This document shows, one piece after another, positions 9,201-26,322 of a DNA stretch of 42,057 nt. The stretch comes from a virus: positions 1 to 42,057 of the IMG/VR virus record IMGVR_UViG_3300007770_000032; one strand, written 5' to 3'. Both the position numbers and the translations under genes were made by a program. Position 1 is the first letter of the stretch; every line of letters begins with the position of its first letter. The notes beneath the pieces are model-generated. The model ran no database searches. It was not told the DNA's origin and saw only the letters and a program-made list of their open reading frames with translations.

Positions 9201-10481
9201 CCCGGAGGAGGATGGATGATCCGAAAGCGGGGCTTTACAACAAAATGGACCCCTCTCGCCTCCCCCGGCAGCACCGGCATCAGTATTGTTGATTTGGAAC
9301 AGAATGCTGAACCACTTAATGCAGCTGACTACTATTCTTCACTCCCGGAACAACTACGCGGTTTGGTGGAATATAAAATTCCAGGAGACGTCGTCAATGA
9401 TTATGCTACATTCACCAACAGCGCCGGCACCGAGACTTTTTGGGCAACTCGAAAGCGCGCCGGCAACACATCTTGGGAGAATGCCACAAGAGTCACGTCG
9501 CCCACTCTTATCCAACGACTTGCTGATAACGCCGTTCCGCGTTATAGCACTGCCCAACATGGAACTACCCTCAATCAAGCCGATCTTGATGCGGCTGCCG
9601 CGGAAATCCAAGCATCCCTCGCTGAATTGCCGGCAAGCCGCCCGACCTTGAGCGAGGAGAACCCCGGACCTAATGTAGTAAACGAAGACGTACGTATTTT
9701 ACAAGCCAAGCTACAGGGGTTAGCTGCCACCCAGGATCCTCCGAGTGTCCTCAGTATTGGTCATTGGGGCTCCCTGCCTGGCTGGGAAGTGGATGGACGA
9801 TTCGGCGATAGAACAAAGATCTCTGTCAAAGCACTTCAAGAGTGGGCCACAAACGTTCCCATGACCGGCGAGATGGATGGCGCCACATGGGCTGCTCTAG
9901 AACAAGCCCTGACCGAGCAAGCCCAAGCTCACTTAGAGGCACAAGCCGGTACCGGCGGCGGTATTTTACCAAACATCAAGGGCGAGAATATCATGAATCT
10001 CTTGTTCTGTCTTCTGGAAATGGGCATGCAAGATGCGGCTACTGGGTTTAACCTTGGCAACGGTCCGAAGAACTCCCCGGATTGGGAGAATTTTGTTGGC
10101 GATCCGGGCGGCGGCCCTGGGATCGGACCCGGATCAAACACTTTGGCTGCCTTCATTGGTAATCCCGTGGTACCTGGATCGGATCCTCTCTTTCCGCTAC
10201 TTACATATGTGCAAGGCGACAATGATCCCCGCGATCCCCGCAACACTATTCCGGATGATCTGAGAGGCTCCATATTCCCCAAGTTCAGCATGAAGGGGGT
10301 GGACTTCACTGGCACACTCTTGGGTCTTTTGATGTTGCCGCCTGGGCCTTTCGGTATTGTATACCTTCTGCTGATGTTGTTGGGTAGAGAACTGGAAGAT
10401 GCCCTCACTCCTGATGAAGATGGCACCACAACTGATGGACCGACAAATGTTTCTGAGGAACAATCTGGAGAACGATGTTAA
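3216..10481 (+). CDS. Giant tail-tip/baseplate protein (2421 aa) with peptidoglycan-binding domain
   Basis: 2421 residues; the overall family is not recognised. Visible parts: a long mixed N-terminal region; a Pro/Lys-rich linker (RPPKAPKPSIKLPKVNKK, about 587-605); an EF-hand-like calcium loop DANDDGITAPGE at about 1757-1768; a Pro/Ala/Gln-rich linker at about 1953-1978; and a peptidoglycan-binding-1-like domain at about 2153-2226 (VRILQAKLQGL ... VDGRFGDRTKISVKALQEW ... TGEMDGATWAAL). Near the end there is a strongly hydrophobic segment at about 2365-2392 (LLGLLMLPPGPFGIVYLLLM), capable of entering a membrane. It lies between the spike genes and gp25, so a hub, tape-measure or cell-puncturing role is plausible. 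Only AGGA about 11 nt before ATG serves as ribosome site. Confidence 0.7.
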   Translation: MAQGEISSYFIDGAAATSNGYRSKKANIPFATNTKSTGPRLNVKLVYSKFDPANGDADFRAAFPSIRNKAANRFILHYFPEYYTFYRVLVRDKERSIGSFIDTQEMGYRRLRETIKDNLLPRYYTSATKPATESVVMAFLNQFRFGLTASEVETLKFSTGQSSPIYNKIRNLQAPAATELAYFYTHSPVEMKTLLTLLELIPTGTQVDASFELFNSDENITPGSKTTTLQISSFMADNKAANDGLGAYQQQLDGFEGSLPINLNFTDMQKGVFTILNGVIMQNLMRDLTDVHNSATVGGPYLDFAAADSLEITFGTKREHGDVPSKTCIASIKYFVAQSSLSQQHMRVGYMTNILYNKEFSNQLVLSTLKNYEFLVRSMRAADAFGGPNLSFTDFLDENAGDFGLEGNTVWEDIPNPAAVVEDMNLKEAVRLGIIDLEDVKSLEKGFEAFLTPEQLDRYKREVIENPEFQKKLKAAKRKMAFSTAKDINKIIIGFLEGSPEGVGIKKNSPLGQFIRKIGIQELAMEAMICATFGLAPSFARIGRAAQSALQQTQAGTSRGASLGGTATSLAAKAAKIRLAQLGRPPKAPKPSIKLPKVNKKMFEPPTLDKELWESLKKSMLDSLMKGAMEVIKSLAALLKELCKINNPYAQDEGATDVGDLVRDNLDQNFKDAPAISNESALDQMFGNDGLTPEQVLGDGTIDNKGYLSDLSAILTSMEICFLFTDRSQVTDFTLDKIVDFNLTYPDLQIQQNLNTPTAVLSFFANLSRFVDITDLCNKIATDLYNANIDNICLVEEQAPELIDKILEDLATNGMELDSPFPYNLQCPLREDYINNPLVSSTIPSFLGSVQEAVEIEFVNGLSAALQILKEPVITSSESTAQIAGVLQAAGLIGGTGPGPDQFSEFGPDLDASAADKADDIMKKVTEVFQTIEDKINHLDRYCDVGALLGVEGQDLVGVTQTIISVLLNFVQQGDFINAIRDLDRRLSELSAAANSAAGLSSVATQYEFPVSFREDFASYIDKQSAEVQAAFGTFSPTWNGTDPNINLVDTKQLATRTIQRPVSQEFGQLKATSNAPSPIAGKFMPLTLDYRFPTKAAPFIEEDGNLLNEITGLPVRVGGKIIPKFVVRDSNTPDDYLRLTFLPASSAGADVQFSMNSNLFGNSFLSQFSDPGPLSRDYSITSGTPGGTDINTYVSPFTNVLYSKLRASAGLGGQQIGTAAAAFGVSMRKDPDAGSDFDLTEHQDERTHVKGTISSILFPALYAGQTEAMFDFIQRNGIFDTPRLDSLNFFFDNRSCIPDNVADLLDMGPGTNACGPSILDEVNEELLQALCHDGADPDDLNPQGTQIRDVVRHFSFLVLLQIHIAQFVVKNIFVFSAFEIDDLMTLGTIKEFMAVNIRNQVQKLIETKPIVGENLVKYYNKKIQRAPVINQGGLLDTDGNVVFPPTKRFRQSDVPAIIEYMTKDRITKSRCAVANAVKRSSDLTSPKDFDRVFVEDVLTVVPSFFGARILGTQYTPNISSDQPMIQVRQQNSSTGISENGFYGALHTSPTHDPGGHIDERTALMNNIPSYFGGSEGVLTGNWVGIAEPAKWRGFDRQMKYGKIVLERQVIWDSVERHGGVPPILEKTTGAEYGLEKDLFEQVLYNDSLKTGGNSPGADLSVPLEFTNLRFKYNIVYYMPTVHSPTSDQPMAISEIFSQANPFYSDAFHGTRADHKLSGMELSRYVLTSLNGHLPLRSYISTDDTELISITQQVSGDANDDGITAPGETILQVAWQNRPVLKTILSEYGTTVSDSELQLIVNDAIFKDYFDKSINRSVTSLVPILENFYLTSNFFPKMDNILQGAKDRCLGIYIDSILNQTPQPPGRTVSPQALAAAGLDPEDPLAGLTTSARDFILKMLIETPINILRGVAETMDPHVGISKIIREITAHVFNEMAKGIDVSPPVKFLRDGPAPAVQQGPPAAQQEGPAYADNAPAGTQMYTYDDDSELEYARVPGGGWMIRKRGFTTKWTPLASPGSTGISIVDLEQNAEPLNAADYYSSLPEQLRGLVEYKIPGDVVNDYATFTNSAGTETFWATRKRAGNTSWENATRVTSPTLIQRLADNAVPRYSTAQHGTTLNQADLDAAAAEIQASLAELPASRPTLSEENPGPNVVNEDVRILQAKLQGLAATQDPPSVLSIGHWGSLPGWEVDGRFGDRTKISVKALQEWATNVPMTGEMDGATWAALEQALTEQAQAHLEAQAGTGGGILPNIKGENIMNLLFCLLEMGMQDAATGFNLGNGPKNSPDWENFVGDPGGGPGIGPGSNTLAAFIGNPVVPGSDPLFPLLTYVQGDNDPRDPRNTIPDDLRGSIFPKFSMKGVDFTGTLLGLLMLPPGPFGIVYLLLMLLGRELEDALTPDEDGTTTDGPTNVSEEQSGERC

Positions 10482-10502: not shown

Positions 10503-10886
10503 ATGTCTGGAATATCACCGAGATTACCATTATTAGTCAGCCCTGTAGACGGAGCATATGGATTGCTTAAAAACTATACCCAAGTGGCAAAGCAGAATTT
10601 CAAAATGCTGCTTTTGACAAGTCCTGGGGAACGTATCATGAATCCAGACTTTGGAGTAGGGCTTAAACACTACTTCTTTGAAAATAATGGTCCTCGTACA
10701 TACTCAGATATCAACGATCGTATTGTTCAGCAAACTAAAACTTATTTGCCCTTTATACAGCTCAATAAGATTGATTTTTCAATCCCAGAACACGAGCTAG
10801 ACCTACATCCACACCAATTATCTATTACCATAGAATTTACAATTCTTCCCTTGCAGGTAACTACTGCCCTGCAAATTGGATTTTAG
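10503..10886 (+). CDS. gp25: Baseplate wedge protein gp25 (GPW/gp25 family)
   Basis: 127 residues, close to the usual length (T4 gp25 is 132). It carries the family hallmark SPGERIMNPDFGVGLKHYFFE at about 39-59 and the helical N-terminal pattern YGLLKNYTQVAKQNFKMLLLT. Family role: the small wedge subunit that, with gp6 and gp7, forms the conserved core of contractile-tail baseplates and links it to the sheath. It sits directly before gp6, an order common in T4-like phages and contractile injection systems. Strong Shine-Dalgarno AAGGAGAG about 8 nt before ATG. Confidence 0.93.
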   Translation: MSGISPRLPLLVSPVDGAYGLLKNYTQVAKQNFKMLLLTSPGERIMNPDFGVGLKHYFFENNGPRTYSDINDRIVQQTKTYLPFIQLNKIDFSIPEHELDLHPHQLSITIEFTILPLQVTTALQIGF

Positions 10887-10911: not shown

Positions 10912-12708
10912 ATGCCAAAGAAACTACAAGCCATAGATTATACCAGCCGCGATTTTGATTCGATTCGTAAAGATCTTGAAAATTACGCAAAACGATATTA
11001 TCCCAATACTTATAAAGACTTCAGCGAAGCCTCTTTCGGCTCTCTTATGCTGGATACGGTCGCCTATATAGGTGACATCCTGTCCTTTTACGTAGATTAC
11101 CAGGCAAATGAAAGCTTTCTAGATTCTGCCATTCAATATAGTAATGTCGTGCGCCACGCGCGCCAGTTTGGTTTTAGGCTTCCCGCTAGCCCTTCCGCTT
11201 ACGGAGTTTTAACTTTTTATATTAAAGTACCTGCAGCAAGCGTTGGAGGTGGACCAGACCTGAGATACGCCGGCACGATGCGTGCAGGATCTGTTTTTGG
11301 ATCCACAGGAGGAGGGTCTTATACCCTTCTGGAAGATGTTGATTTTTCTAAACCTTTTAATCAAGTCGTCGCCGGTGAAGCGAATCCAACGAATGGGGAT
11401 GCTACATCATATATTATTCGTGCTTTGGGTCGAGCAGTCTCTGGGCATGCAGCTGTTGAAGAGCGGACCATTGGAAATTTCCAGCGATTTTTGAAAGTTA
11501 ATTTATCGCGAGCAAATGTCGCCGAGGTGATGAGTGTCACTGACACCGAGGGTCATGAATATTATCAAGTAGATAATCTATCCCAAAATACAATTTATAA
11601 AGCGATCCGCAATACTGACTCCAATAGTTCCACGGTAGCTAGCATCCTTAAGCCTGTTCCCGTCGCGCGTCGTTTTGTATTAGAACAAACAGCTACTGAA
11701 TCCTTTCTACAATTTGGATACGGCTCCGACTCCGAGCTGTTGAGTAATTCAGTTCTTGACCCGACGTCGCTTATGCTTGACCTAAATGGTAGAAATTACA
11801 TCACTGATAGTGATTTTGATCCTACTCAATTAATAAGTACAGACAAATTTGGCATTGCCCCATCTAATACAACCTTGCGCATTTCATATCGACTTAATTC
11901 AAATGTAGATGTAAACGCCGCATCTAATACTGTTACAAGTGTTACCAACGCAACATTCCGATTTTTAGATCAGGCCAATCTTGTAAGGAGTACACGTGAT
12001 AGTGTAGCAAGCTCACTGGAAGTAACTAACGAACAGCCATTTGTGGGGAGCATTAGCCTTCCCTCTGCTACGGAAGTGCGAGAGCGCGTGCGAGGACACT
12101 TCGCTGCGCAGAATCGCGCAGTAACGGCTGAAGATTATCAAGCCATTGTATATGGTATGCCCGGGGCTTTTGGAGCAATCCACCGCGCTCGAATTGTGAA
12201 GGATTTTGATGAGTTTAAGAGGAATCTTAACCTTTATGTTATTTCAACCGACAGTAGCGGAAAGCTCATTGCTTCGAACTCTACTTTAAAAAATAATCTT
12301 AAAAATTGGCTTGGACAATATAGAATGGTTAATGATACGTTAGACATCCTAGATGCAGAAGTAGTAAATTTTGGAATTAAATATCAAGTTGCACTCGAAA
12401 CAACTGCCAATAGGTACACTATTCTTAATAAAGCCAACAATCGACTGGCTGCGTACTATAATGATAGACCATATGATATTGGAGAAAGCATAGTGATTTC
12501 TGATGTTTTTCGTGAGTTGCTCAAGGTACCGGGTATTTTAGATGTCTACGATGTTCAGATTGTCGCTAAACAAGGCGGACCCTATTCAGAAAGCAACTAT
12601 GATTTTTATAGTAATCTGTCTTCGGATGGTCGTATGATTAGAGCCCACGAGACAACTGTGTTTGAGTTAAAGTTCCCAAACACTGATATTAAAGGATCGA
12701 TTAGATAA
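10912..12708 (+). CDS. gp6: Baseplate wedge protein gp6 (baseplate J-like)
   Basis: 598 residues (T4 gp6 has 660). The N-terminus is typical of T4-like gp6: DYTSRDFDSIRKDLENYAKR, then FSEASFGSLMLDTVAYIGDILSFYVDYQANESFLDSA. The middle contains the baseplate J-like region, including VRERVRGHFAAQNRAVTAEDYQAIV at about residues 391-415, which is the usual hallmark of the family. Role: dimers of gp6 form the inner ring of the baseplate wedge and drive the sheath-contraction switch. It follows gp25 by 25 nt. Its stop shares one base with the next start (TAATG at 12706-12710). Confidence 0.93.
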   Translation: MPKKLQAIDYTSRDFDSIRKDLENYAKRYYPNTYKDFSEASFGSLMLDTVAYIGDILSFYVDYQANESFLDSAIQYSNVVRHARQFGFRLPASPSAYGVLTFYIKVPAASVGGGPDLRYAGTMRAGSVFGSTGGGSYTLLEDVDFSKPFNQVVAGEANPTNGDATSYIIRALGRAVSGHAAVEERTIGNFQRFLKVNLSRANVAEVMSVTDTEGHEYYQVDNLSQNTIYKAIRNTDSNSSTVASILKPVPVARRFVLEQTATESFLQFGYGSDSELLSNSVLDPTSLMLDLNGRNYITDSDFDPTQLISTDKFGIAPSNTTLRISYRLNSNVDVNAASNTVTSVTNATFRFLDQANLVRSTRDSVASSLEVTNEQPFVGSISLPSATEVRERVRGHFAAQNRAVTAEDYQAIVYGMPGAFGAIHRARIVKDFDEFKRNLNLYVISTDSSGKLIASNSTLKNNLKNWLGQYRMVNDTLDILDAEVVNFGIKYQVALETTANRYTILNKANNRLAAYYNDRPYDIGESIVISDVFRELLKVPGILDVYDVQIVAKQGGPYSESNYDFYSNLSSDGRMIRAHETTVFELKFPNTDIKGSIR

Positions 12709-14252
12709 TGGCCATTGCTCGTTACGTCGCAGATGCCGACACTACCATAACTAATGCTTTTGAAGCTGATCTCTCAATCCGCGGAACCGGCTCTAATATG
12801 GGATATGCCGATTCCATTGAGATTTTCTCTATTTATGGACAAACCTCTGGATCTGCCGGACAATCTCAAGAGCTTTCACGCGCTCTTATGCGGTTCCCTA
12901 TTACTTCTATCATCTCGGATCGAGCAGCTGGCACCATCCCGGCATCCGGTAGTGTCTCATTCTACTTACGAGTGCACAATGCAGCCCACCCTTTTACTTT
13001 ACCGCAAGATTTTAGCTTGACGGTCACTCCTGTGTCTCGGTCTTGGACCGAGGGCACCGGTCTCGATATGGATGAATACAAGGATCTCGGAACTGCTAAC
13101 TGGCTCAGAGCAACTGATTCTGTTGACTGGACTAACATTGGAGGAGATTATATCTCGATCGACCCGGGCTCAACTTACACAATTACGTTTGAGCAGGGCT
13201 ATGAAGATATTGAACTAGATGTTACTAGAATTGTTGAGCAATGGGTCGACGGTACTCATGACAACTATGGATTTGGAATCCATTTAGTTGCAACCGACGA
13301 AGCTTATTTTTCTAGTTCAACGGGAGCCGACACTTCGGTCCTGATTGACAATCCTACGGGCGCGCAACAGTCTTATTATACGAAGAAGTTTTTTGCTCGT
13401 TCAACTGAATTCTTTTTCAAGCGCCCAGTTATCGAAGCGCGCTGGGATTCTCGTGTTTCAGACGATCGAGAAAATTTCTATTATTCCAGTTCAGTGGCGC
13501 CCGCTGAGGACAACCTTAACAAACTATATTTATACAATTATGTGCGCGGTCGTTTGGTGAATATTCCGGTGATTGATGACGGGAACACTCTGATGGTTTC
13601 CCTATTCTCAGGTTCGACATTCCCCACCGGTTCAAAGTTAACTCTATATGACGGCAATCTCAATACGACAGCTTCTTGGGTATCCCGGGGTATTTATTCT
13701 GCCGAACTGGCCATCACCGCTGCCCTTTCAACGGAGCAACCAAAAGGGCTCACAGTTCTGTATGATGTGTGGCATAACCAGTCTAGCGGAGGGCCCCATA
13801 CTCTTGGGACAAGTCAGTATTTTACTGGCTCAATCTACCCGGAGCTAATGCCCACCTACGAGTCAGCGCCGACTTTCCAAAGAATTACTAGCTGTAGAAA
13901 TCTCAAAAAATCTTATTCGACTGCTGACACAGCTCGATTTAGATTCTTTGTGCGCGATAGAAATTGGAATCCCACCATCTATGTAAAGGCTAACGCAAAT
14001 AATCCAACTGATATTATTACGAGTGCTTCCTACAATGTGCGCCGGGTTGTTGATAACTATAACGCGGTTCCATATGGCACAGGTTCGCAATACAGTACAT
14101 ATTTGTCATACGATAAGCAAGGTAACTATTTCGATCTCGACATGTCATTATTGGAAGCTGGATACATGTATACGATAAATTTATCCTATTATAATGATAG
14201 TATAGGAGCATGGCAAGAACAACCACAAACGTTCAAATTTAGAGTTGATTGA
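12708..14252 (+). CDS. Baseplate/fibre-associated protein with DNRLRE-like N-terminal domain
   Basis: 514 residues. The first about 230 residues resemble DNRLRE/CBM96-type beta-sandwich modules: ADADTTITNAFEADLS at the start, SRALMRFPIT, a SVSFYLRVHNA strand, then VTPVSRSWTEGTGLDMDEYK and DWTNIGGDY, followed by ELDVTRIVEQWVDGTHDNYG. Such modules are found in surface and glycan-binding proteins. The rest is beta-rich with no named domain. The position between gp6 and the giant wedge-like protein suggests a baseplate-attached adhesin or fibre connector. Translation is probably coupled to gp6 through the TAATG overlap. Family assignment of the first domain is moderately sure; the function is inferred. 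Confidence 0.68.
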   Translation: MAIARYVADADTTITNAFEADLSIRGTGSNMGYADSIEIFSIYGQTSGSAGQSQELSRALMRFPITSIISDRAAGTIPASGSVSFYLRVHNAAHPFTLPQDFSLTVTPVSRSWTEGTGLDMDEYKDLGTANWLRATDSVDWTNIGGDYISIDPGSTYTITFEQGYEDIELDVTRIVEQWVDGTHDNYGFGIHLVATDEAYFSSSTGADTSVLIDNPTGAQQSYYTKKFFARSTEFFFKRPVIEARWDSRVSDDRENFYYSSSVAPAEDNLNKLYLYNYVRGRLVNIPVIDDGNTLMVSLFSGSTFPTGSKLTLYDGNLNTTASWVSRGIYSAELAITAALSTEQPKGLTVLYDVWHNQSSGGPHTLGTSQYFTGSIYPELMPTYESAPTFQRITSCRNLKKSYSTADTARFRFFVRDRNWNPTIYVKANANNPTDIITSASYNVRRVVDNYNAVPYGTGSQYSTYLSYDKQGNYFDLDMSLLEAGYMYTINLSYYNDSIGAWQEQPQTFKFRVD

Positions 14253-14262
14253 TAATTAAAAC

Positions 14263-17200
14263 ATGGGTTTAAAGGACTACTACGAAAAAGCAAAATCTCT
14301 TCAAGCACTATCGAACAAATCCGCTGCCGATATCGGCGAAGAAGTAGAATCTGCTGCATATCATACCGAGGATATAATCCGCGAAGAGCGGTTTATTCCC
14401 CGGGTTAATTTTAAATATCCTAAAAACTTCGCTCGGTATGGCTCTGCTGAAGAGTACTACGCTCAGTCTTTGCGGCGTATTTATGAGGATTATCCTTATG
14501 ATGGATCGCTTCGTGAAAGATTGGAGTGGGAGAATAAATCCACTTATTTAGATCTACATGTTTTCGAGAATGAGTATCCACGCACCAATGGATATATTAA
14601 TATGTCGGCCGGTGAGTGGGGCAACGTCTCTGCTAAACGGGAAGGTTATGGACTCCCCTCGGATGTAGAATATATTTTTCTTAAGGGCGGACCTCACCCC
14701 AATCCTGACGGGATGTCCCCCTATTCAACTCAGCTCACCGGCGCAAACTATTACGAAACTGCCTTAAACCGAACCAATAACTTACAGTTTGACCTTTTAA
14801 GCAAGGGCGCCACTGTAGAGTTTTGGATGAAGAAGGATGCTTTTGATCTCACAAAAACCGAAAAAGAAGTTATTTTCGACCTCTGGAATGGTAATGCATC
14901 TGGATCCGGTAACTACGGACGTTTTAGATTAGAATTAACCGGCGCCTCAGGCGCAGATTGTCTTCGCGCAACGGTATTGTCTGGCGGACATGGCTTTGAA
15001 ATGCAATCTGTTGCTGACAGCACACTGACCAGTGAAGCCATCGCAGATGGAACCTGGCACCACTATGCACTTACCATGATGTCGGCGTCTAATGGAGTGC
15101 TTACGAATTTCTACCTTGATGGAAATCTGAACCGATCACAAGTTCTTGGCAGCTCCATGGACCTTAATGAGGTCACGGGCGCCTTGAGGGCAAACATCGG
15201 CGCATTGATTTCCTCACCAGTCAGTTCTTCTGCCGCTCAATATTCTGGCAAGCTTTCGGCTTCGCTAGATGAGTTCCGATATTGGAAGACAGAACGTAGT
15301 GGTAAAGAGATTGGTCGCCATTGGTTCACTCAGGTGGGCGGCGGAACTAATGATGATCCTGAACCCTTTAAGACGACTCTAGACAAGGTAAACACCGATC
15401 TAGGAGTATACTACAAGTTTAACGAAGGAATTACCGGCGTAGCTGCCACGGATTCTGTCCTTCTTGATTATTCGGGACGTATCAGTAATGGTAGTTGGAC
15501 CGGATATTCATCAGCTTCCAGGGCGACTGGTTCAGCTATTGTCCTTTCGAATGCTGCCATCAAAGAATTTAAGGATCCGATTATCTATGCATTTCATCCT
15601 GAAGTTTCTGCACTGGCAACACGAATGCGTCTTACTGGATCCAGCTATGACGTTACAAATAACGCTGCCATTTATAATACTATCCCCGCATGGATTACAG
15701 AAGAAGACAACGAGGGGCAACGCCAACTCAAACAGCTTGTACAAATTATGTCGAGTTATTTTGACACGTTGCAACTTCAGGTCGAATCTCTTCCCAGCTT
15801 GGGGAATATCAATTATGCATCTGGAAGCCATAAGCCCCTTCCGTTCGCGGATCGCCTCGTTAGCTCAGCAGGGTTGGCTGTTCCAGATTTATTTATCGAT
15901 GCTGACATCATTGAAAAGCTAGCAGATCGCAGCGAAGATCGCATCTATGAAAAATCACTGGCTGATATTAAGAATACCATTTATCAGAACATCTATAATA
16001 ACTTGGTTTACATTTATAAAACCAAGGGAACTGAAAAGTCTTTCCGTAATTTAATTCGCTGCTTCGGTATCGACGACGATCTTGTTAAACTAAACATGTA
16101 TGGCGACGGAATCGAATATGAAGTTCGAGAAAATCGCCGCACCGTTTCTGTCGTTGATAAGTTTATTGATTTTAATACGCCTGATAACACATCTGCTACG
16201 GTGTACCAATCTCAGGGCAGCGACACCACCAACACCAAGGGATATCTGCCTCAAACTAGCGCATCCGCAACCGGTTTTGCACAAACTTTAGAAGCAGACA
16301 TCCTTTTTCCACTAAAGCCCGACGAGAATGCCTCATTTTATTATAACACTAATACTGTTAGCGCTTCGCTTTTTGGAGTGCACGCAGTTCACAATAATGA
16401 AAATTATACTACCTGGGCCACTTCTCCGGCTGATAGCGCTAACTTCCAGGTTTATGCCGTCCGCGATGAACAAACTTCTGATAGTGTTCGTTTCGTACTT
16501 ACAGGAACTGCCGGAACATGTGTGCCCTGGTCGATGGCGTCGGATTTATATGAAGCAGTTTATAACAATACTTACTGGAATTTAGCAGTTCGCATTAAAC
16601 CCCTCAATTATCCCCAGGCTGGACAGGTTCTTGGCGCTCCCACAAGTGCTAACATCAACAACTACACCATAGAGCTTCATGGCGTTCAGCTAGACGCCGG
16701 CACAGTACGTAATGAGTTCAACCTCGCTGCGACTGTTGAAGGAGCCCCAGGCGGCTTTGTGACAGGCAGCAAGAGAGCCTTCATCGGCGCCCACCGGACT
16801 AACTTCACCGGTTCCGTTCTAGAGGCGTCTGATGTTAAGGTAAATGCATGCCGTTATTGGTATGATTACTTAGAAGATGATGTGTTGGTTGGACATGCTT
16901 ACGATACTCAAAACTACGGGTCTCTATATCCCAATCGTTATGCGTTTCCGTTTAATGCTTCCGCGTCGTTTGGCGAGGTGTTGCAGTCGGATACTCTTGT
17001 ATTCAATTGGGAGTTTGCTGAGAACACCGGATCAAATGCTAGCGGACAATTCTCGGTAGCGGATGAATCATCGGGATCAATTGACACAGCAGCTAGATTT
17101 GATGCGCTTGGGAATATTCTGGGCTATCAATACCCAGCCAAGGGCTATGGCTTCTTAGAGTCTTCCACAAAGGTTGTCGACAAAGACCACGTGATCTCCT

Positions 17201-20200
17201 CCAAGCTACAACTACCAGAGAACGTTCACTCCAGCGACATGATCACAGTCTTAGGCGCCCAGGAACAACAGGTGTTTACTCGCGACTCACGACCCGTTAA
17301 CTACTTCTTTGCTTTTGAGAAGAGCATGGCCCAAGCTCTCTCGGTTGAAATGATCAACTATTTCGCTACGCTCAAGGATATCCATAATCTCATCGGCGCG
17401 CCAGTGAATCGCTATCGCCCAGAATATAAGGGACTGAAGGTTCTGCGACAGCGATTCTTTGAGCGTGTTTCTAACTCTGAAATTGATTTTGAGAAGTTCT
17501 ATGAATTCTATAAGTGGTTTGATTCATCGCTCACGATGATGTTGCAACAGCTTGTTCCTGCCTCTGCTGATTTCTCAGAGAATGTGCGAACGGTTATTGA
17601 GAGCCACATGCTCGAACGAAGTAAATATCAACACAAGATTCAGAATGTTAAGCAGCAATCCGCCGACCCGGAAGGAACTTTATTGGGTAACTCCACGCAG
17701 ATGCCACAGGGTGGCTCTCCCGAAGACAATCCGCCTGGCACCGGCTTCTTCTCGGCTAATGCCGCCACGCGAAGACAGCTCGGAACATCTCAGCCAATCA
17801 ACTTTAAGAACTGGAACTTCATTCATGCACCAGTTCCGCGCCCTCCTCCGGTACCCAAGTCCATGCTCTTCGACGGCGACGAGCCCAGCGAGATTGATAT
17901 TGGTGCCGATTCTGTTTGGAATCCTCTAGTAGGACTCGCCGGCGCTGACGCAAAAGCTTTTACTATCTCTGCCTGGATTAAAGCAGATGGAACAACAGGA
18001 CAAGGAGGCGGCTACGGAGTGATATTAGATCTTGCTGCCTGGGACCGTGTCCTCCTGGTAGATTATTCTTCGTTGCCTTATAGCACTTATAATCTTAAGT
18101 ATTATATGCGCGGCAGCACCCCGGGACAGGCTAACACCGCCACCGGCGGTTTGAATAAAGACGTCTGGTATCACGTTGCTGTCACGTATACCGGCGGCAC
18201 AGCCGGCACAATAGTTATATATGTCGATGGCGCTGACGCCACCGACTCGGTCACGACACCCTCTGTTCCCGACGCCATCGGTAGCGGTCATGGTTGCAAC
18301 ATCGGAGTAGATTATGGAGGCAGCGTGCAAGCCTTCGGCGGCAATATGTGTGATATCGCCATTTGGGACAAAGCCTTATCAGCCGCAGAAGTATCCGAAA
18401 TTTATGGCGATGGCAAACGAGTTAACTTAAAGAAGGTGGTTGCCACTCCCAATCTTCTGACCTGGTGGTTGATGGGCTCGGACCCGCTGGATACTTACAA
18501 TGGTACGATTTATGATCAAGTTGGAGGCAGAAACGGTACCGCAAGCAATTTCGCCTCGGCAGCATCTATCGAGGAAGATTCACCAGCCTTTGAACCCGCA
18601 TATTATGGATCAATTACAAATGAAAAGTCTATTTGGTGGCAATCCGAGGCTGCTCGAAATACGATTGCATTAGTCGAGGACACGCCCTCGGCAGATCCCG
18701 GCTTGTTGAAAAATAAGCAAACTATATTGGAGAATGTTAAAGCCACCAACAAGAGAGCGCAGCAGGCTCCCTATAAATTTGGCGCAGAAGGCAATTCAAC
18801 ACTGGGTGGTGTTGGATTTGGTATCAATAAGAAGACCGACTTTGTCTTTGTGGCCACGACCCCATTTGGTTCAGTAAGGAATGGCGCAGCTGAAAATATC
18901 ATGGTTGGCTTCCGACGCGAAGTTGAGGAGCTAATGAATACGAAGGATGTTTATCATCCAGCTTTTAAACAGCGCCTCGGATTCCAACTGAATCCCGATA
19001 TCAACCGAGACAATAGTGACCTTCATAAGGGCGATGGCAATCTATTGGCGCCATTTAGCATCTACTCTTCCTCAGTTACCACTGGACAAAACCTTCAAGT
19101 TATCCAAAACTATGCACCTGAGATTGAGATTACAAATCTACACCATGATATCGTTCATGACAGCGACACACCGCTTCAGGGACCCTTTACAGAGAAGTTT
19201 GTTGGCGGTCGTCAATACCGACACACTGAATTAAATGAGGGATCTGATAGTGCCCGCTACCGCGCTGAAGGTTGGAAGATAAAGTTCGATAAGGTTCTGT
19301 CGAAAGACGGCGCAGACTTTGAAACACCAATGATTGGCATCGTGCCGCCCAACTATGATGGCGGCGCCGCAGAGGGATTTGATAAAGATGTTCCCACTGC
19401 TCATCGCCTGCGCAACGTTGGTGCCAAGCGCCCCATAAACATTCAGAATGTTAAGATGACCACCTCTTCAGTGGGCACGAACCTTTCGGGAACGCTAGCC
19501 CATGGCAAGATCGGAAACTACCAGAAGAATTACGAAGTGGTACAGACGTCTGGCCGTACTCAAAACGATTTCTATTTCAATGATCAGTCATTTGATTTTG
19601 CTTCGAATCCTGAGACTCTTGCTACTCGTGGTCGATCGCCGATGAAGCAGGATCTAGGAAATACTGGCGGCACTCTGGATTATGAGTTGCCTAATCGAAC
19701 CGGTGCGAATTCCAATCAATCTGTTATTGTAAATCGCTTTAGTGCTGGTGGTGCTGGCTATGAAGTCGACTCCCTCGGATATATGGACCCAGCGCATGAA
19801 GAGATGTCAGTTTACAATGCGTCTCCTTACCGAAGCCCCCGCACCCTTAACTTTGGAAATACAGGATCTCTTGGACAAGTCTACGGCGAACTTTCAGGCA
19901 CCATCCAGGTCCGAGATCAGATCGGAAGGCCGCGAGGTCTTAGACAGCTTTCTAGACTTCACAGTGGCAGGTTCGGTGCAGATGGAGTCTTCGGGGAAGT
20001 TGTACCTCAGACATATGTGACCGTTCCGTCTTATCACAAGACCAATCGGAATGCTAAGGTGGTAATGAAAGAGGTCACTGGGCATGCTGCTAAATTTGAT
20101 AGCCCCTATGAGTCTGGAGTTGGATATGCCGTTGCAACTATCGCTAGCGGATCCCAGTACGGTTACATCGCCGGGTACTACTCAGGCAACGGCACCCCCG

Positions 20201-23200
20201 GCGACAATGCCGGCCGCATCATGACGTCTCTCCTCTACGGCTACCCGTATCCCGGCGGCACAATGCCATGGTCCATGGCAACATGGCTTTATATTGATGC
20301 AGAGTCGCCCAATATGCCTCCCCCGGGAGATATCTCGTCCAATGCCCATCTAGGTCGACATAATGTATTTTCTGCGCTTGATATAACCAGTCTGTATTAT
20401 GATCAAAGTAATAATAAAATGATGTGGCATTATAGTTCTTCCTTAGGTGGATCGAATAATGGTTTTATTAAAACAATTGGGGATGCACCTTTAAATCAAT
20501 GGTTCCACGTGGCACTGGTTAAAAAACGCGGGCGCAACGCAGGCAAACAGGATGAAAAGTTTCTGAGAATGTATATTAATGGAGAGGAAAATTGGCAGCT
20601 GCACGAGCACACCAACGATGGTGAGAGCGCTACTGGTCTGCTAACTCTTCCTGACAGCGTTCATGGTTACTACGGCATTTCGTGCACCATCGGCGCGGGG
20701 CATGCCGCCGACCCGGCAGTTCCACCAACGGTTACGGGCTCATATCCCTGGATTGGTTCTATGAGTGAAATGGTCTGGTATCGCCGACCGCTCACTACGA
20801 CACCAATTCGGAGCCTATATAATGGAGGATATACATTTGACCTTTTTGATAAATCGATGGTTAAACAAATCTCAACAGAAACTATACGCCAAGAGTATAA
20901 TAAACTGGGTATGTCACACAGTTCGGTGGCATCGGGATCCTATCCTACTGATTTGTTAACCAATCTTTTTGGATATTATCGTTTTCATCAATTTTCCGGT
21001 TCTCAAGTAGGAGGGACGAATTCATCTTATGGGTATTCAGATAATCCCGCGGCTTATAGCCCGACCGATCGATGGAATACTTTAGGAGTTCTTAATGCTA
21101 TAAATATACATTGGAGTGGATCCTATCCCGGCAGACCCCTGAGCTACGGAGAGTACGCCGCTGCAGCCGGAGACAATTCAGTGTTTGCTTCTATTATTCT
21201 TAATGGGAATGTCAAGTTCGAGTCAACTCAAACACCTCGTCACGTGCAACGATCCATTCAGTATGATAATTTGTTTGTACAGCATCCAATTCCGAGATCT
21301 GTGCAGCAATATAGCTGGGTTACTTCTTCTTTACGGTCCCACTCATCATATCGCCCCTTCCCGGCGCAAGATATTTTTTACGATCTCGAACCGCCGAGTT
21401 GTATAAAAGCCACTGCTCTCGAAGGTATTGCTACTCACGGAGATATTTTTTCTCGTGGCCCCCGCGTTCAAAGGGTCAACGGCGCCTGGTCCGGTGCACC
21501 CACCGACGTCACCGGATCAGATAGATTGATGTTTTTCGGTAGAGAGCCCTTGCATGTTGGCTTGAACACAATGATTACAGACCCTGTAGATACGAGCCTT
21601 CATATCCAGGGCGGTACAAATTATGAGGCAACCAATGTAATCTCTTCTCGCGGTGGAATGTATTTTAACACGACCAACGGCTTCAGCCAGTTCGGAACCT
21701 CGAAGACCTGGGACCAACTTATTGGCACCGGGTCGACAAATGCAAATCAAATGTCCTGGACGTGGTGGATGAGAAGAGACGGTCCCGGTAAGAACCAAGT
21801 CGACTATAATTCAGTACACCAATATTCGACCCCTCCACACTGGCCTAGAATTTTTAATTTTGGTAGTTCTAATATGCCCGGCACCCCCAATTACCAGGCC
21901 GGCACTTTCTTTACAACAGTCGATGATGATGGCTATCTATCGTTATATGCAAGTAATTGGACCACAGCTTCCGGATCCTGGGTTGTTTGCGACGAAACGG
22001 GCGGATCCACTATTGAGAATGGAAAGTGGTATCATGTTGTAATGACTTATGATGGGTCCTCTGCTTCAAACAATCCTATCTTCTATGTTAATGGACGAAA
22101 GTACAGTGTCTCTGGTTCAGCCATCGGCGGATCAGGTGGCAACATAGTTTGTCGGACACGACCGACTGGTTCATATGTAGGGCTGACTTCTAATGTCAAA
22201 CGCGGCGCCATAGTAGGGAATGGAATCTACAGGGTCTCCATCGCGGATGGATCCAATCAAGGTGCATGGAATGGAATGTTTGCTGATTTAGCCGCATGGA
22301 ATACAATCTTGAATGATACACAGGCGTCTGCGCTCTATAATAACGGCGCCCCAACAAATATCAAACAGCTTCTCCCGGAGGATTTGGTGGCTTGGTACCG
22401 CTTCAGCCCCGGCGCTGGAGATAGAGCTGTACAGCTCTGGAACCAAGCGATCCCTACTGCATATTCCCAAAGTAGTACAGGCAAGATCGCTTTGCCATCG
22501 CTCCCGGATACCTGTCACTTCCCGGTATCTTCGTCGGTGTTCCCAGTACGCCCGGGCATACCCGACCTTAAAACCTTTGAATCTGATTACGCTACATCTT
22601 TTAACACTCTTAATCTGGGTCGTAATGGACCTTATGGACATCCCATGTGGAAGCAGACAAGAACTGGTGAGCACAAAGTTGCGCGCCAATTGCGCAAGGA
22701 GAACAAGATCGGCGTTCTTATACCCCCGGCGCCAGCTAAGTCCCGCCGCGGTCTACAATACGGCAAGCAAGCCAACGACTTCGTGGATTATACCGAAATG
22801 CCGGTCGTTTACGATACCGCCAAGCCCATTGAGTTTGTATTCGAAGACCGCGCCGGCGGCAACAAAGACAACGACCTGAGACTCAAGGTTAGTTATCAGA
22901 ATAACATGGACTATTTCACCAATCAAGGACTCAATAATCGCTTGTCTTTGGGAGAGCGAATTAGACCAGATGTAGGAAATGCCTTTAATGCAGCTGCAGA
23001 TTATCTCTTTGATTCCAATTTGAGTGCGGTTGTTAAATATGGACAGAAGATTTACCCCGCTGCGGAGAATACGGGACAGAAGAGAATTCGAACCCGCGAA
23101 GCATATAACTTTGATGATGTTTGGAATGAAGTACGTAAATATCGTTCAATTCAGATCCCGCCGAAACCCAACTCCCAGGGCTTCTACGATCCTGGCGAGA

Positions 23201-26200
23201 GTATTTGGCCACTGGATGCGCCTCTTAATCTGACCCATTCTACTACGAGAGCTTCGTCGGGATCTGTGCCAAGTGAGACAGGGCTCTTCCCGGGAGGCAC
23301 TCCCGGGGTTGTCTTCGCGGGCGGAGGGCTGATGCCCGGTGGGGCGACCGCCGAGTCCCTTGACGCTGCCGGTTACTATGGTCAAGGCGCCGGCGAGTTA
23401 CAAAATACTTATTGTCGTTTTGGACTTTATACTGGAAAGGGAGTAGATGGAATCACCGCATCTTTGTCATATGCAATGCCCTATCGCGCAGGGCAGATAC
23501 CGTCTTCTTCAACTCCTGTTGGACCACCCAATGGTCGGGGATTATTGGTGGGACCGGTGGCTTGGACCGCTCATGAAAGCGCTTCAATGCCCTATAAGCC
23601 CTATGAAGGATATATGGAAAATGTTCAAAAACTTGGCAAGAATATGTCCATTATTCCAGAGTTTAGAATTAGCGATCACTTAGAACTCCTCGTTGATAAA
23701 AAAAGCGGCGATGTGCTAACAGATCTTCCAGATATGTTCAGTGTAACTGGAGCGATCCAAGCAAGCAGTACCAATGAAGATTTTTATAAGGTTTATTCTA
23801 CATCGGATTTCATGAAGTATTTCAAGGTTGTAGATAAGCAGCTTGCCAACAAAACTACTAGCGCCGGCGCTCAATTAAAGAGGTATGCTATAGAATTAAG
23901 TTGTGATGCTTTGATGCAGTTCCTTCCCTATAAAGGATTTTATCCTGCCGAAAGGACTGTAGAATTGGGAAGGCTGTTATCTCAATCATTGGGTCCGATT
24001 CGTACATATCCCCTGTCCGATAAGAACTGGAGTTCGGGAACGCGAGGTCGTATTACGAAGCGCATCTTGCTCGAACCTCTCATGGCGCCCGGAATTCTCT
24101 TTAATAGTATCAAATCGGGGATAGCCTGTAGTAGCCTAGTACTTGTTGGTAATGATGGCGTCGATATTTCTGACTCTACTGTTTCATCGCTTACAATGAG
24201 CAACACTTACCGAGAAAGTAATCTAGATGGTACTGCTTACACATATAAATGGTATGAGCCCTTTCCGTCACTTCGTGTGATTTCTAGTGGATCAAAAGAT
24301 TATTATGGCTGCCCTGTTTATGGACAACCACTACCATTTGAAGCCATTCGAAATCCAGAAGCGTACTTGTCCCGCACTGCTTTGCAAAATAGATCCGCAG
24401 TTGAGGCTACAGTCCCCAATCTATATCTATATGATACAGGTCTTTACAGCGCGAGCCTAGGTACTGCTACTGACGGAGCAACTCCGCGCATCATTTATGA
24501 CGGAAAGACAGAAAGCCCACTTTATAAGCTCGGAATAGATAACTTTTTATGCGAGACAGTAAACTTCTTTCAACACCCCCTGAAATCTTTTACTTCCAAA
24601 CCCGAAGAAGAGTTCCTATCAGTTAAAAAAGATAGTTATTATGGCATGCAGATTCACCTCGGCTTTTCACAGTTCTCGGCATCGCATGCCCAGTATCCAG
24701 CTCAACGTACGTTTGGAATGTATAGTCGGGATTCAGCATTTGGTCCTGCGGTGCAGCTAAGGGGGACAAGCAATGCTGATACTCCGATAAGCCGCATTGT
24801 TGGATCTTTCGAGCCCTGGCTACCGCCCTATTGGTATGGTTCTTGTGAGGCTAATATTATTTTTAAGGCACCCTATAGCGGTAAATTGAGCTTGGATGAA
24901 TTGCTAGGAAATAGTACGATTGAATACAAAAAAGATTCGGCTGATGTAGCTTACTTTGGCCGCGGCGGCGACAGCGCCGCCGAACAAGATACTGAGCATC
25001 TGTTCCGAACCTATGATCCGGGTTATGATGTAGTAAGACCGCAAATTACCTCAAGCGTGAATATTCTAGAGAAGCTACTCGTGGTGCCACCGAATACCAA
25101 TACTCAACAAGCACGCTGGCTCATTCAACCCAAATTTGAGGCGCCTGTTTTGAATTTCTTTGGGGTACCGTGTTCTGGGTCAACACAAACTCAAGTCAAC
25201 CAGCCCCAGTACCGGATCAACGGATCACCCCTCGTCGGCGGAAACGGCAATATAATGCAACGCGGCATGTGGCATCAATATGGTAAACCACTCAGTGGGT
25301 CTGAAGGCGTCCATCTCTCCATCCGAAACTTGCCAACAAAGTATAGTTCGTCGACGTATTCCGGTCCAATCGACGTCCAGCCTCTTAGCAAAATCGTGGG
25401 AATCCCCACATCAACTAAGAGAATTGGCGACTTCGCTGATGCCAAGACAGTCGAAGAGGCAATCGTATGCGTTCCCTTCATCACAGTTAGGGGCAATCGC
25501 GAGTTCTTTAACGTTGAGATGAGATCGCAAGAATATGTAACCCAATTAGCACTGCTGAACAAGTACGTGTTCCCGCCGACCATGGACTTCCTCAAGAACA
25601 ACAGCGTGAAGCCTTTCGCCTTCTATGCCTTTGAGTTCAATATGCAATTTACCCAAAAGGATCTTATGGATATTTGGCAGAACTGTGCGCCTACAAAGGG
25701 CTCTGCATTCCAGAAGTCGAATGCAACTATTAAGATCCGCAGCCTTGTTGACAAGATGTTGGAGAACAAGGAAGAACTTCAGTGGATGGTATTTAAGGTT
25801 AAGAGAAAGGCTGAAAAGGATTATAGTGTTTATACGAGGAAGGGTCTTACAGAGGGACTGCCTATCGTGCAACCGTCACTGGATTCCCCATACAGCTATA
25901 ACTGGCCTTATGATTACTTCTCCTTCGTGGAGCTAGTTAAGATAGATGAATCGGTGACTTACGCAACTGACGACATTATTCCAGAAGACGAGGAAGAGGA
26001 CGTGATAATGCCAGACCTACGAGAGTTTATTCCGGCACCTAAGAAACTACCCCGCGTTATTGCACCGCCAGCGGCGCTATTAAAGGAAGTAGAGGAAGGA
26101 ATTCCGACTAAGGTTATAAAGCCGAAGACGCCACCTAAAAAGTCCGCAGCTAAATCGGATATCAAGAAAGAGGCTAGCAAGAATACTAGACGCTCTAAGC

Positions 26201-26322
26201 CACGTCGTGAACAGAGTAAGGCAAAGTCCAAACGCTCAACGAAGAGCAAGGATGAGTCTCAGAAGCGCTCCGGGAAGAGGAGAGGCTCGCGCTATCCAGG
26301 AAAGGGTAAAAAAGGAAAGTAA
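14263..26322 (+). CDS. Giant baseplate protein (4019 aa), gp7/P2 gpI-like core with four LamG domains
   Basis: 4019 residues with no break in frame. Core: residues about 480-1130 include NTIYQNIYNNLVYIYKTKGT then EKSFRNLIRCFG (KGT at 588-590), like the KGT motif of P2 gpI-type wedge proteins, and FYEFYKWFDSSLTMMLQQLV at about 1079-1098 followed by a VIESHMLERSKYQHK helix. Four concanavalin A/LamG-like modules with the W-x-H-[YV]-[AV] strand pair are seen at about 180-355 (WHHYALTMM), 1205-1395 (WYHVAVTYTGG), 2000-2190 (WFHVALVKK) and 2455-2700 (WYHVVMTYDGS). The last 67 residues contain 29 Lys/Arg and 5 Asp/Glu. It follows gp25 and gp6, where the third wedge subunit is expected. Inference: wedge gp7 counterpart enlarged with glycan-binding modules. 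No clear ribosome site precedes the ATG. Confidence 0.75.
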   Translation: MGLKDYYEKAKSLQALSNKSAADIGEEVESAAYHTEDIIREERFIPRVNFKYPKNFARYGSAEEYYAQSLRRIYEDYPYDGSLRERLEWENKSTYLDLHVFENEYPRTNGYINMSAGEWGNVSAKREGYGLPSDVEYIFLKGGPHPNPDGMSPYSTQLTGANYYETALNRTNNLQFDLLSKGATVEFWMKKDAFDLTKTEKEVIFDLWNGNASGSGNYGRFRLELTGASGADCLRATVLSGGHGFEMQSVADSTLTSEAIADGTWHHYALTMMSASNGVLTNFYLDGNLNRSQVLGSSMDLNEVTGALRANIGALISSPVSSSAAQYSGKLSASLDEFRYWKTERSGKEIGRHWFTQVGGGTNDDPEPFKTTLDKVNTDLGVYYKFNEGITGVAATDSVLLDYSGRISNGSWTGYSSASRATGSAIVLSNAAIKEFKDPIIYAFHPEVSALATRMRLTGSSYDVTNNAAIYNTIPAWITEEDNEGQRQLKQLVQIMSSYFDTLQLQVESLPSLGNINYASGSHKPLPFADRLVSSAGLAVPDLFIDADIIEKLADRSEDRIYEKSLADIKNTIYQNIYNNLVYIYKTKGTEKSFRNLIRCFGIDDDLVKLNMYGDGIEYEVRENRRTVSVVDKFIDFNTPDNTSATVYQSQGSDTTNTKGYLPQTSASATGFAQTLEADILFPLKPDENASFYYNTNTVSASLFGVHAVHNNENYTTWATSPADSANFQVYAVRDEQTSDSVRFVLTGTAGTCVPWSMASDLYEAVYNNTYWNLAVRIKPLNYPQAGQVLGAPTSANINNYTIELHGVQLDAGTVRNEFNLAATVEGAPGGFVTGSKRAFIGAHRTNFTGSVLEASDVKVNACRYWYDYLEDDVLVGHAYDTQNYGSLYPNRYAFPFNASASFGEVLQSDTLVFNWEFAENTGSNASGQFSVADESSGSIDTAARFDALGNILGYQYPAKGYGFLESSTKVVDKDHVISSKLQLPENVHSSDMITVLGAQEQQVFTRDSRPVNYFFAFEKSMAQALSVEMINYFATLKDIHNLIGAPVNRYRPEYKGLKVLRQRFFERVSNSEIDFEKFYEFYKWFDSSLTMMLQQLVPASADFSENVRTVIESHMLERSKYQHKIQNVKQQSADPEGTLLGNSTQMPQGGSPEDNPPGTGFFSANAATRRQLGTSQPINFKNWNFIHAPVPRPPPVPKSMLFDGDEPSEIDIGADSVWNPLVGLAGADAKAFTISAWIKADGTTGQGGGYGVILDLAAWDRVLLVDYSSLPYSTYNLKYYMRGSTPGQANTATGGLNKDVWYHVAVTYTGGTAGTIVIYVDGADATDSVTTPSVPDAIGSGHGCNIGVDYGGSVQAFGGNMCDIAIWDKALSAAEVSEIYGDGKRVNLKKVVATPNLLTWWLMGSDPLDTYNGTIYDQVGGRNGTASNFASAASIEEDSPAFEPAYYGSITNEKSIWWQSEAARNTIALVEDTPSADPGLLKNKQTILENVKATNKRAQQAPYKFGAEGNSTLGGVGFGINKKTDFVFVATTPFGSVRNGAAENIMVGFRREVEELMNTKDVYHPAFKQRLGFQLNPDINRDNSDLHKGDGNLLAPFSIYSSSVTTGQNLQVIQNYAPEIEITNLHHDIVHDSDTPLQGPFTEKFVGGRQYRHTELNEGSDSARYRAEGWKIKFDKVLSKDGADFETPMIGIVPPNYDGGAAEGFDKDVPTAHRLRNVGAKRPINIQNVKMTTSSVGTNLSGTLAHGKIGNYQKNYEVVQTSGRTQNDFYFNDQSFDFASNPETLATRGRSPMKQDLGNTGGTLDYELPNRTGANSNQSVIVNRFSAGGAGYEVDSLGYMDPAHEEMSVYNASPYRSPRTLNFGNTGSLGQVYGELSGTIQVRDQIGRPRGLRQLSRLHSGRFGADGVFGEVVPQTYVTVPSYHKTNRNAKVVMKEVTGHAAKFDSPYESGVGYAVATIASGSQYGYIAGYYSGNGTPGDNAGRIMTSLLYGYPYPGGTMPWSMATWLYIDAESPNMPPPGDISSNAHLGRHNVFSALDITSLYYDQSNNKMMWHYSSSLGGSNNGFIKTIGDAPLNQWFHVALVKKRGRNAGKQDEKFLRMYINGEENWQLHEHTNDGESATGLLTLPDSVHGYYGISCTIGAGHAADPAVPPTVTGSYPWIGSMSEMVWYRRPLTTTPIRSLYNGGYTFDLFDKSMVKQISTETIRQEYNKLGMSHSSVASGSYPTDLLTNLFGYYRFHQFSGSQVGGTNSSYGYSDNPAAYSPTDRWNTLGVLNAINIHWSGSYPGRPLSYGEYAAAAGDNSVFASIILNGNVKFESTQTPRHVQRSIQYDNLFVQHPIPRSVQQYSWVTSSLRSHSSYRPFPAQDIFYDLEPPSCIKATALEGIATHGDIFSRGPRVQRVNGAWSGAPTDVTGSDRLMFFGREPLHVGLNTMITDPVDTSLHIQGGTNYEATNVISSRGGMYFNTTNGFSQFGTSKTWDQLIGTGSTNANQMSWTWWMRRDGPGKNQVDYNSVHQYSTPPHWPRIFNFGSSNMPGTPNYQAGTFFTTVDDDGYLSLYASNWTTASGSWVVCDETGGSTIENGKWYHVVMTYDGSSASNNPIFYVNGRKYSVSGSAIGGSGGNIVCRTRPTGSYVGLTSNVKRGAIVGNGIYRVSIADGSNQGAWNGMFADLAAWNTILNDTQASALYNNGAPTNIKQLLPEDLVAWYRFSPGAGDRAVQLWNQAIPTAYSQSSTGKIALPSLPDTCHFPVSSSVFPVRPGIPDLKTFESDYATSFNTLNLGRNGPYGHPMWKQTRTGEHKVARQLRKENKIGVLIPPAPAKSRRGLQYGKQANDFVDYTEMPVVYDTAKPIEFVFEDRAGGNKDNDLRLKVSYQNNMDYFTNQGLNNRLSLGERIRPDVGNAFNAAADYLFDSNLSAVVKYGQKIYPAAENTGQKRIRTREAYNFDDVWNEVRKYRSIQIPPKPNSQGFYDPGESIWPLDAPLNLTHSTTRASSGSVPSETGLFPGGTPGVVFAGGGLMPGGATAESLDAAGYYGQGAGELQNTYCRFGLYTGKGVDGITASLSYAMPYRAGQIPSSSTPVGPPNGRGLLVGPVAWTAHESASMPYKPYEGYMENVQKLGKNMSIIPEFRISDHLELLVDKKSGDVLTDLPDMFSVTGAIQASSTNEDFYKVYSTSDFMKYFKVVDKQLANKTTSAGAQLKRYAIELSCDALMQFLPYKGFYPAERTVELGRLLSQSLGPIRTYPLSDKNWSSGTRGRITKRILLEPLMAPGILFNSIKSGIACSSLVLVGNDGVDISDSTVSSLTMSNTYRESNLDGTAYTYKWYEPFPSLRVISSGSKDYYGCPVYGQPLPFEAIRNPEAYLSRTALQNRSAVEATVPNLYLYDTGLYSASLGTATDGATPRIIYDGKTESPLYKLGIDNFLCETVNFFQHPLKSFTSKPEEEFLSVKKDSYYGMQIHLGFSQFSASHAQYPAQRTFGMYSRDSAFGPAVQLRGTSNADTPISRIVGSFEPWLPPYWYGSCEANIIFKAPYSGKLSLDELLGNSTIEYKKDSADVAYFGRGGDSAAEQDTEHLFRTYDPGYDVVRPQITSSVNILEKLLVVPPNTNTQQARWLIQPKFEAPVLNFFGVPCSGSTQTQVNQPQYRINGSPLVGGNGNIMQRGMWHQYGKPLSGSEGVHLSIRNLPTKYSSSTYSGPIDVQPLSKIVGIPTSTKRIGDFADAKTVEEAIVCVPFITVRGNREFFNVEMRSQEYVTQLALLNKYVFPPTMDFLKNNSVKPFAFYAFEFNMQFTQKDLMDIWQNCAPTKGSAFQKSNATIKIRSLVDKMLENKEELQWMVFKVKRKAEKDYSVYTRKGLTEGLPIVQPSLDSPYSYNWPYDYFSFVELVKIDESVTYATDDIIPEDEEEDVIMPDLREFIPAPKKLPRVIAPPAALLKEVEEGIPTKVIKPKTPPKKSAAKSDIKKEASKNTRRSKPRREQSKAKSKRSTKSKDESQKRSGKRRGSRYPGKGKKGK

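Follow-up and report, generated by a model that had tools for sequence, protein, structure and literature searches.

A probable baseplate wedge protein of 4019 residues with exchangeable LamG cassettes in a group of uncultured phages

The window analysed here, a stretch of 42,057 bases that corresponds to a single viral record (IMGVR_UViG_3300007770_000032), contains a gene encoding a giant protein which, as judged by comparison with its relatives, consists of a wedge-like core and a fused large C-terminal module bearing LamG cassettes. The explanation that we favour, with a probability of about 0.6, is a baseplate wedge protein with an inserted sandwich, a fused C-terminal half and exchangeable glycan-binding cassettes. 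Comparative data establish the homology to proteins encoded near gp6 in cultured phages, the fusion or splitting of the C-terminal half, the fixed joints, and the gain, loss and transfer of cassettes.

Organization of the giant protein gene and its surroundings

The baseplate region of the window and the parts of the giant protein are the following (J1 to J4 are the joints where cassettes are inserted):

10503..10886, + strand: gene encoding a gp25-like baseplate/sheath-initiator protein of 127 aa (PHROGs baseplate wedge subunit, 6.2e-15), syntenic in the phages immuto and Mel-JY01
10912..12708, + strand: gene encoding a gp6-like baseplate wedge protein of 598 aa (PHROGs baseplate wedge subunit, 2.3e-21)
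12708..14252, + strand: gene encoding a DNRLRE-domain protein of 514 aa (NCBIfam NF033679), between gp6 and the giant gene
14263..26322, + strand: giant protein gene, one unbroken ORF of 4019 aa
14725..15546, + strand: LamG G1, aa 155-428, fixed in every full-length relative and forming a single clade
15580..16137, + strand: N-terminal half of the core, aa 440-625, gp7/gpI-like, with the KGT motif near aa 588-590
16135..17217, + strand: fifth beta-sandwich, aa ~625-985, LamG-like by fold, inserted in the core
17350..17667, + strand: second (C-terminal) half of the core, aa 1030-1135, FYEFYKWFDSS...LVPASADF, with residues that are invariant among the relatives
17866..18585, + strand: LamG cassette G2 at joint J1, aa 1202-1441, found by Pfam and a relative-trained profile
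19651..19653, + strand: joint J2, aa ~1797, empty in the window
20182..21096, + strand: LamG cassette G3 at joint J3, aa 1974-2278, found by Pfam and the relative-trained profile
21655..22500, + strand: LamG cassette G4 at joint J4, aa 2465-2746, found by Pfam and the relative-trained profile
22600..25977, + strand: conserved backbone of the C-terminal half, aa 2780-3905, encoded separately in some distant relatives
26095..26319, + strand: Lys/Arg-rich tail, with 30 K/R and 6 D/E in 75 aa

The giant gene is located where the wedge gp7 is expected, as a previous sequence-only reading had noticed, with gp25 and gp6 upstream and only the DNRLRE gene between gp6 and the giant gene. The window, immuto and Mel-JY01 have the gene order sigma factor, gp25, gp6 and core in common, and the gp6-like protein of the window shows full-length tblastn matches to both phages (31% identity in Mel-JY01 and 30% in immuto). 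The DNRLRE protein matches NF033679 with 1.6e-7 and 31.6 bits, slightly below the cut-off of 34, and its gene shows a tblastn match at the equivalent position in Mel-JY01. Immediately before gp25, positions 3216-10481 contain an ORF of 2421 aa with a peptidoglycan-binding domain (PF01471, 4.2e-6), which possibly encodes a hub, spike or tape-measure-type protein. At the opposite end of the region, few relatives align with the Lys/Arg-rich tail of the giant protein.

Relatives of the giant protein

A scan of IMG/VR found 432 stretches that encode relatives of aa ~480-1130. The distinct full-length relatives, 67 in number, range from 2782 to 4325 aa and contain one to six LamG domains each, so that the length which had been considered exceptional for a phage protein is not exceptional within its own family. 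In the GTDB collection there is one relative; its 4-kb contig, binned with a Flavobacteriales genome, may be contamination. The tblastn search of the giant protein against cultured phages gave no direct match at the thresholds used, and the link to cultured phages, Microcystis phage Mel-JY01 and Flavobacterium phage immuto, was made through gp6. The best matches in BFVD are unnamed or uncharacterised proteins, one of them from an uncultured marine virus, the matches to this viral library as a whole being mostly uncharacterised or LamG proteins, and phmmer and hmmsearch of the PDB returned only chance or repeat matches.

Some relatives show an interrupted gene. In L025 (8555-20891) it lies in two overlapping frames, with an overlap of 14 bases and the break near window aa 555; a frameshift, a sequencing error and programmed slippage are possible causes. 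In L313 (8690-17242) and L267 (6689-15581) the core gene consists of two ORFs, with the break near window aa 900, and L313 shows about 230 extra residues before the core gene resumes, which suggests an inserted element or intron.

The core and its inserted sandwich

The KGT..R..IRCFG motif and the FYEFYKWFDSS helix, which had been pointed out from the sequence, are both present and strongly conserved in 52 sequences. The proposal that the four LamG modules interrupt the core needs to be modified, since G1 precedes the core and G2 to G4 follow it, in the C-terminal half. What splits the core is the segment of aa ~625-985, previously counted as part of it, which is a fifth beta-sandwich. By blastp, the window core and immuto gp109 share two colinear segments, 461-614 (E 2e-12) and 1039-1121 (E 3e-6), which are separated by 424 residues in the window and by only 84 in immuto, where the inserted sandwich is missing between the matched flanks. 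The core profile aligns to the Mel-JY01 protein over aa 445-1119 (hhalign, P 1.7e-10). The AF2 model of the fifth sandwich shows beta strands with moderate to high pLDDT. In Foldseek, LamG structures dominate the matches of the whole N-terminal model, of which about 770 columns align to structures with two LamG domains, such as neurexin L2-L3; at the level of the model, this span is consistent with G1 plus the fifth sandwich. Because the sequence similarity of the fifth sandwich to LamG is weak, it is termed LamG-like by fold only; a decoy control for this segment was discarded on account of one absurd outlier.

The similarity of the core to gp7 of T4 and gpI of P2 had been proposed for a profile search, and it stands in part: the KGT region is in register with gpI/TIGR02242 and with gp7, but the curated cut-offs are not reached. 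For the KGT region, 49 of the 112 relatives have TIGR02242 (phage tail protein domain) as their top NCBIfam family (best E 0.0013), and no other family comes near this frequency. The window protein itself scores 14.7 bits against TIGR02242, under the curated cut-off of 51.85. Tail_P2_I (PF09684, cut-off 20.6 bits) gives no match in the window and matches two of the 112 relatives, with a best E of 0.2, and phrog_964 (T4 gp7) shows no profile match in the window or in 13 other records. In hhalign comparisons of a 112-row core profile, with column-shuffled decoys as control, the best match falls on the KGT motif, in register, for gp7, gpI and pooled gpI/TIGR02242; decoys scored as high in 4 of 200 cases for gp7, in 1 of 200 for a set of 11 gpI proteins and in none of 200 for pooled gpI/TIGR02242. 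When this profile was widened with immuto, Mel-JY01 and a third phage, KGT was again in register, the pooled gpI/TIGR02242 comparison reached a P of 0.0011 with 0/100 decoys scoring as high, and the gp7 comparison was likewise equalled by 0/100. The C-terminal half of the core alone shows no significant match to gpI or gp7, an immuto profile of three sequences does not match gp7, and the alignment of three TIGR02242 proteins alone gives its best match out of register. Nor was the KGT match recovered when gpI was compared with gp7 by hhalign as a control, so single comparisons at such a distance are insensitive. The AF2 model of the KGT region from the 112 rows is poor (pLDDT 66, pTM 0.35), and Foldseek with that model, including the PDB, found nothing significant.

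The core is single-copy in 14 records. A separate gp7 gene elsewhere, which would speak against the assignment, was not found in the 14 long records, a negative of little weight; the TIGR02242 and Tail_P2_I searches of relatives, which found nothing, overlook the core too. Overall, the profile data indicate that the core (aa ~440-1135) is probably gp7/gpI-like, and a wedge role is supported by its position, its homology and the in-register profile matches.

LamG domains and cassette joints

The presence of four LamG modules is well documented by Laminin_G_3 (PF13385), with a whole-protein E of 4.6e-41 and 140.9 bits. Its single matches have E-values of 4.0e-23, 7.3e-15, 5.6e-8 (G4) and 2.7e-7 (G3), three of them above the cut-off of 27.6 bits and the fourth below it at 25.7 bits, and a LamG profile trained on the relatives recognizes all four domains with 2.6e-26 or better, including G3 and G4, the weakest in Pfam. 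The W-x-H motifs, which had been interpreted as module boundaries, number exactly four (WHH 265, WYH 1302, WFH 2080 and WYH 2589); since each LamG contains one of them internally, the motif is part of the domain and not an edge marker.

The expectation that LamG domains would be present or absent at the same joints among relatives holds for G2, G3 and G4 and fails for G1, which is fixed. G1 was considered as a variable cassette and rejected because it is universal among full-length relatives, in which it is strongly conserved and makes its own group in the LamG tree. The smallest full-length relatives (2782-2942 aa) contain G1 only, and one of these, L062 (2823 aa), was used as the reference for the joints. 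Insertions relative to L062 are mostly of about 245-350 residues and occur at recurring places, which in L062 coordinates are J1 (1184-1195), J2 (1536-1545), J3 (1671-1688), J4 (1735-1793) and a rarer J1b (~1393-1430). Among the 67 distinct full-length proteins, LamG occupies J1 in 8, J2 in 28, J3 in 7, J4 in 15 and J1b in 5, counts which are approximate as in a few proteins a single unaligned gap spans neighbouring joints; the automatic table also missed J1 of L045 and J2 of L030, both of which carry LamG there. The number of LamG domains tracks protein length (Spearman 0.80). Where J1 is empty, as in L016 and L012, G2 is absent and a W..xHAP motif is directly joined to S[IL]WWQ. These alignments place the gain and loss of cassettes at four or five fixed joints.

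Cassettes of different joints intermix in the LamG tree, which shows 27 changes of joint label where 7 would be sufficient; the changes are fewer than with shuffled labels, and many branches are long and poorly supported. Cassette G2 of the window and the J1 cassette of L045 show 87% protein identity and 90% DNA identity over 682 bp (~17855-18536), whereas the cores of the two share 61% protein identity and the DNA adjoining the cassette is without match. On these identities, G2 is a recent and sharply bounded transfer between distantly related phages. Similarly, the J2 cassettes of L038, L045 and L058 are 77-81% identical and their cores 60-64%. L301 and L320 show the reverse, with cores 86% identical and J4 cassettes 49% identical, which would reflect either replacement or very fast change of the cassette.

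The DNRLRE gene upstream of the giant gene is enlarged in L293 (6447-8690) and L306 (6167-8731), encoding 748 and 855 aa, respectively, compared with 514 in the window. In L293, one part of this gene resembles LamG (32.5% to G2 of the window), so the neighbouring gene may also receive cassettes.

The C-terminal half as a fusion

In L295, L306 and L288 the core stops at ~1240 aa, and the ORF after it encodes the counterpart of the C-terminal half of the window protein; L261, L303 and L293 are likewise split, at a point further downstream. Since this half is a separate downstream ORF in distant relatives, the 4019-aa protein corresponds to the core plus a protein that is elsewhere separate. Gene comparison thus identifies the giant protein as a fusion, the direction of change being inferred. 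Joint J1 is situated near the boundary between the core and the C-terminal half. No cultured member bearing the C-terminal half was found by tblastn of cultured phages, and no homologue of it was detected in the tail regions of immuto and Mel-JY01, which differ in this respect from the window.

Proposed function and alternative explanations

The core (aa ~440-625 and ~1030-1135) would most likely play the role of gp7/gpI and join the neighbouring gp6-like protein in the wedge. It is enlarged by a LamG-like sandwich inserted in it, with the fixed G1 before it, and by the fusion to a second large protein, encoded by a separate gene in distant relatives, whose backbone gains, loses and swaps LamG cassettes of ~250 residues at fixed joints via recombination. 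The cassettes would probably project from the periphery of the baseplate and bind host-surface polysaccharide with low affinity and high avidity, given six wedges with several modules each. Such binding would aid adsorption and orient the tail before contraction, and cassette swapping would have adaptive value, letting the phage track changing host glycans. The multivalent glycan binding by the baseplate that the sequence-only reading had advanced is plausible and has parallels in other baseplates.

LamG folds are not invariably sugar binders, and the core could be a wedge whose LamG cassettes are structural or decorative, binding virion proteins or fibres or acting as spacers. This alternative is rather unlikely, yet it is the one with most in its favour: LamG-like jelly rolls are frequent in viral proteins, as the BFVD matches illustrate, G1 is as universal and strongly conserved as a structural piece would be, and the available text on XM1 (PMC10457771) and AlgoCIS (PMC8894135) describes a gp7-like part that attaches spikes or fibres. 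The gain, loss and swapping of G2 to G4 fit a changing external ligand better, an argument which is silent on G1. Very large multi-lectin proteins are often adhesins, and a tail-fibre-like or peripheral adhesin encoded after gp6, with the KGT similarity as a short convergence, would explain why the curated wedge families are not reached and why there is no confident fold match. We consider it improbable, because conservation and colinearity of the core hold whether or not a phage has an insert in it, the KGT match recurs across target sets and beats nearly all decoys, and the long records searched gave no other gp7 candidate. The records are metagenomic and L025 is split by a 14-base overlap, so the long ORF and the cassette differences might be attributed to assembly artefacts such as chimeric contigs or collapsed repeats; the single intact frame of 12 kb in the window, the long intact homologues in dozens of independent contigs and the recurrence of the same joints across many samples make this explanation very remote.

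A wedge protein with exchangeable glycan-binding cassettes is the preferred reading. A bolder version of it, which we put forward only tentatively, is that the wedge of a widespread uncultured phage group is a re-assortable lectin array with standing sockets, where LamG cassettes recombined between phages change host recognition and leave the tail fibres untouched.

Significance and comparison with known systems

Tail fibres and spikes are the usual basis for reading the host specificity of contractile phages. If a protein in the wedge position carries exchangeable lectin-type modules, fibres alone cannot predict the host range of this group, and the tip of the tail may itself act as a surface binder that is rapidly re-assorted. 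The combination of fixed joints and sharply bounded transfers would also be, if true, a natural experiment on the tolerance of virion proteins to inserted domains.

The KGT region of P2 gpI/TIGR02242 and T4 gp7 is in register with that of the window, and their genes likewise follow a gp6/gpJ-like gene; gpI (176 aa) and gp7 (1032 aa), unlike the window protein of 4019 aa, are without such cassettes. The Bacillus phage Vp4 wedge protein Gp119 contains carbohydrate-binding modules (CBMs) that are absent from its homologue, and it decorates host cells (PMC11406892). Gp119 (831 aa, wedge protein 3) differs from the window protein in that its CBMs are of other types, not LamG, and its kinship to the core is undemonstrated. 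According to the accessible part of the AlgoCIS report, there are two CBMs in the wedge protein Alg11, and the gp7-like part of Alg12 is described as a hotspot of evolution and re-engineering (PMC8894135). Both are wedge proteins enlarged by extra domains, as is proposed for the window protein; AlgoCIS is an extracellular injection system with different modules, and multi-joint cassette exchange is not described in that part of the report. Recent domain exchange in receptor-binding and other tail proteins of phages is documented in the available text of a study of domain shuffling (PMC10684548), where a wedge-like protein with LamG cassettes at fixed joints is not mentioned. Nothing was found in the open-access literature on LamG together with baseplates. 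As far as the accessible texts on Vp4 and AlgoCIS go, the idea of a sugar-binding wedge is already known, and the novelty seems to lie in the scale, in the LamG modules and in the direct evidence that phages of a widespread uncultured group exchange cassettes at fixed joints.

Immuto gp109 (YP_010114574.1, 1265 aa) and Mel-JY01 WWT39511 (1336 aa), with cores homologous to that of the window, are annotated as hypothetical proteins, and as in the window their genes lie few genes after gp25 and gp6. In immuto, whose laboratory host is Flavobacterium sp. LMO8, the gp6-like protein is gp112, and aa 395-760 of gp109 are free of the insert. The present analysis proposes a role for these proteins of two cultured phages, where it is testable. 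The immuto core is without LamG, and three LamG matches occur elsewhere in that genome (NC_055915.1, ~139,900-142,400), in small ORFs far from the baseplate cluster.
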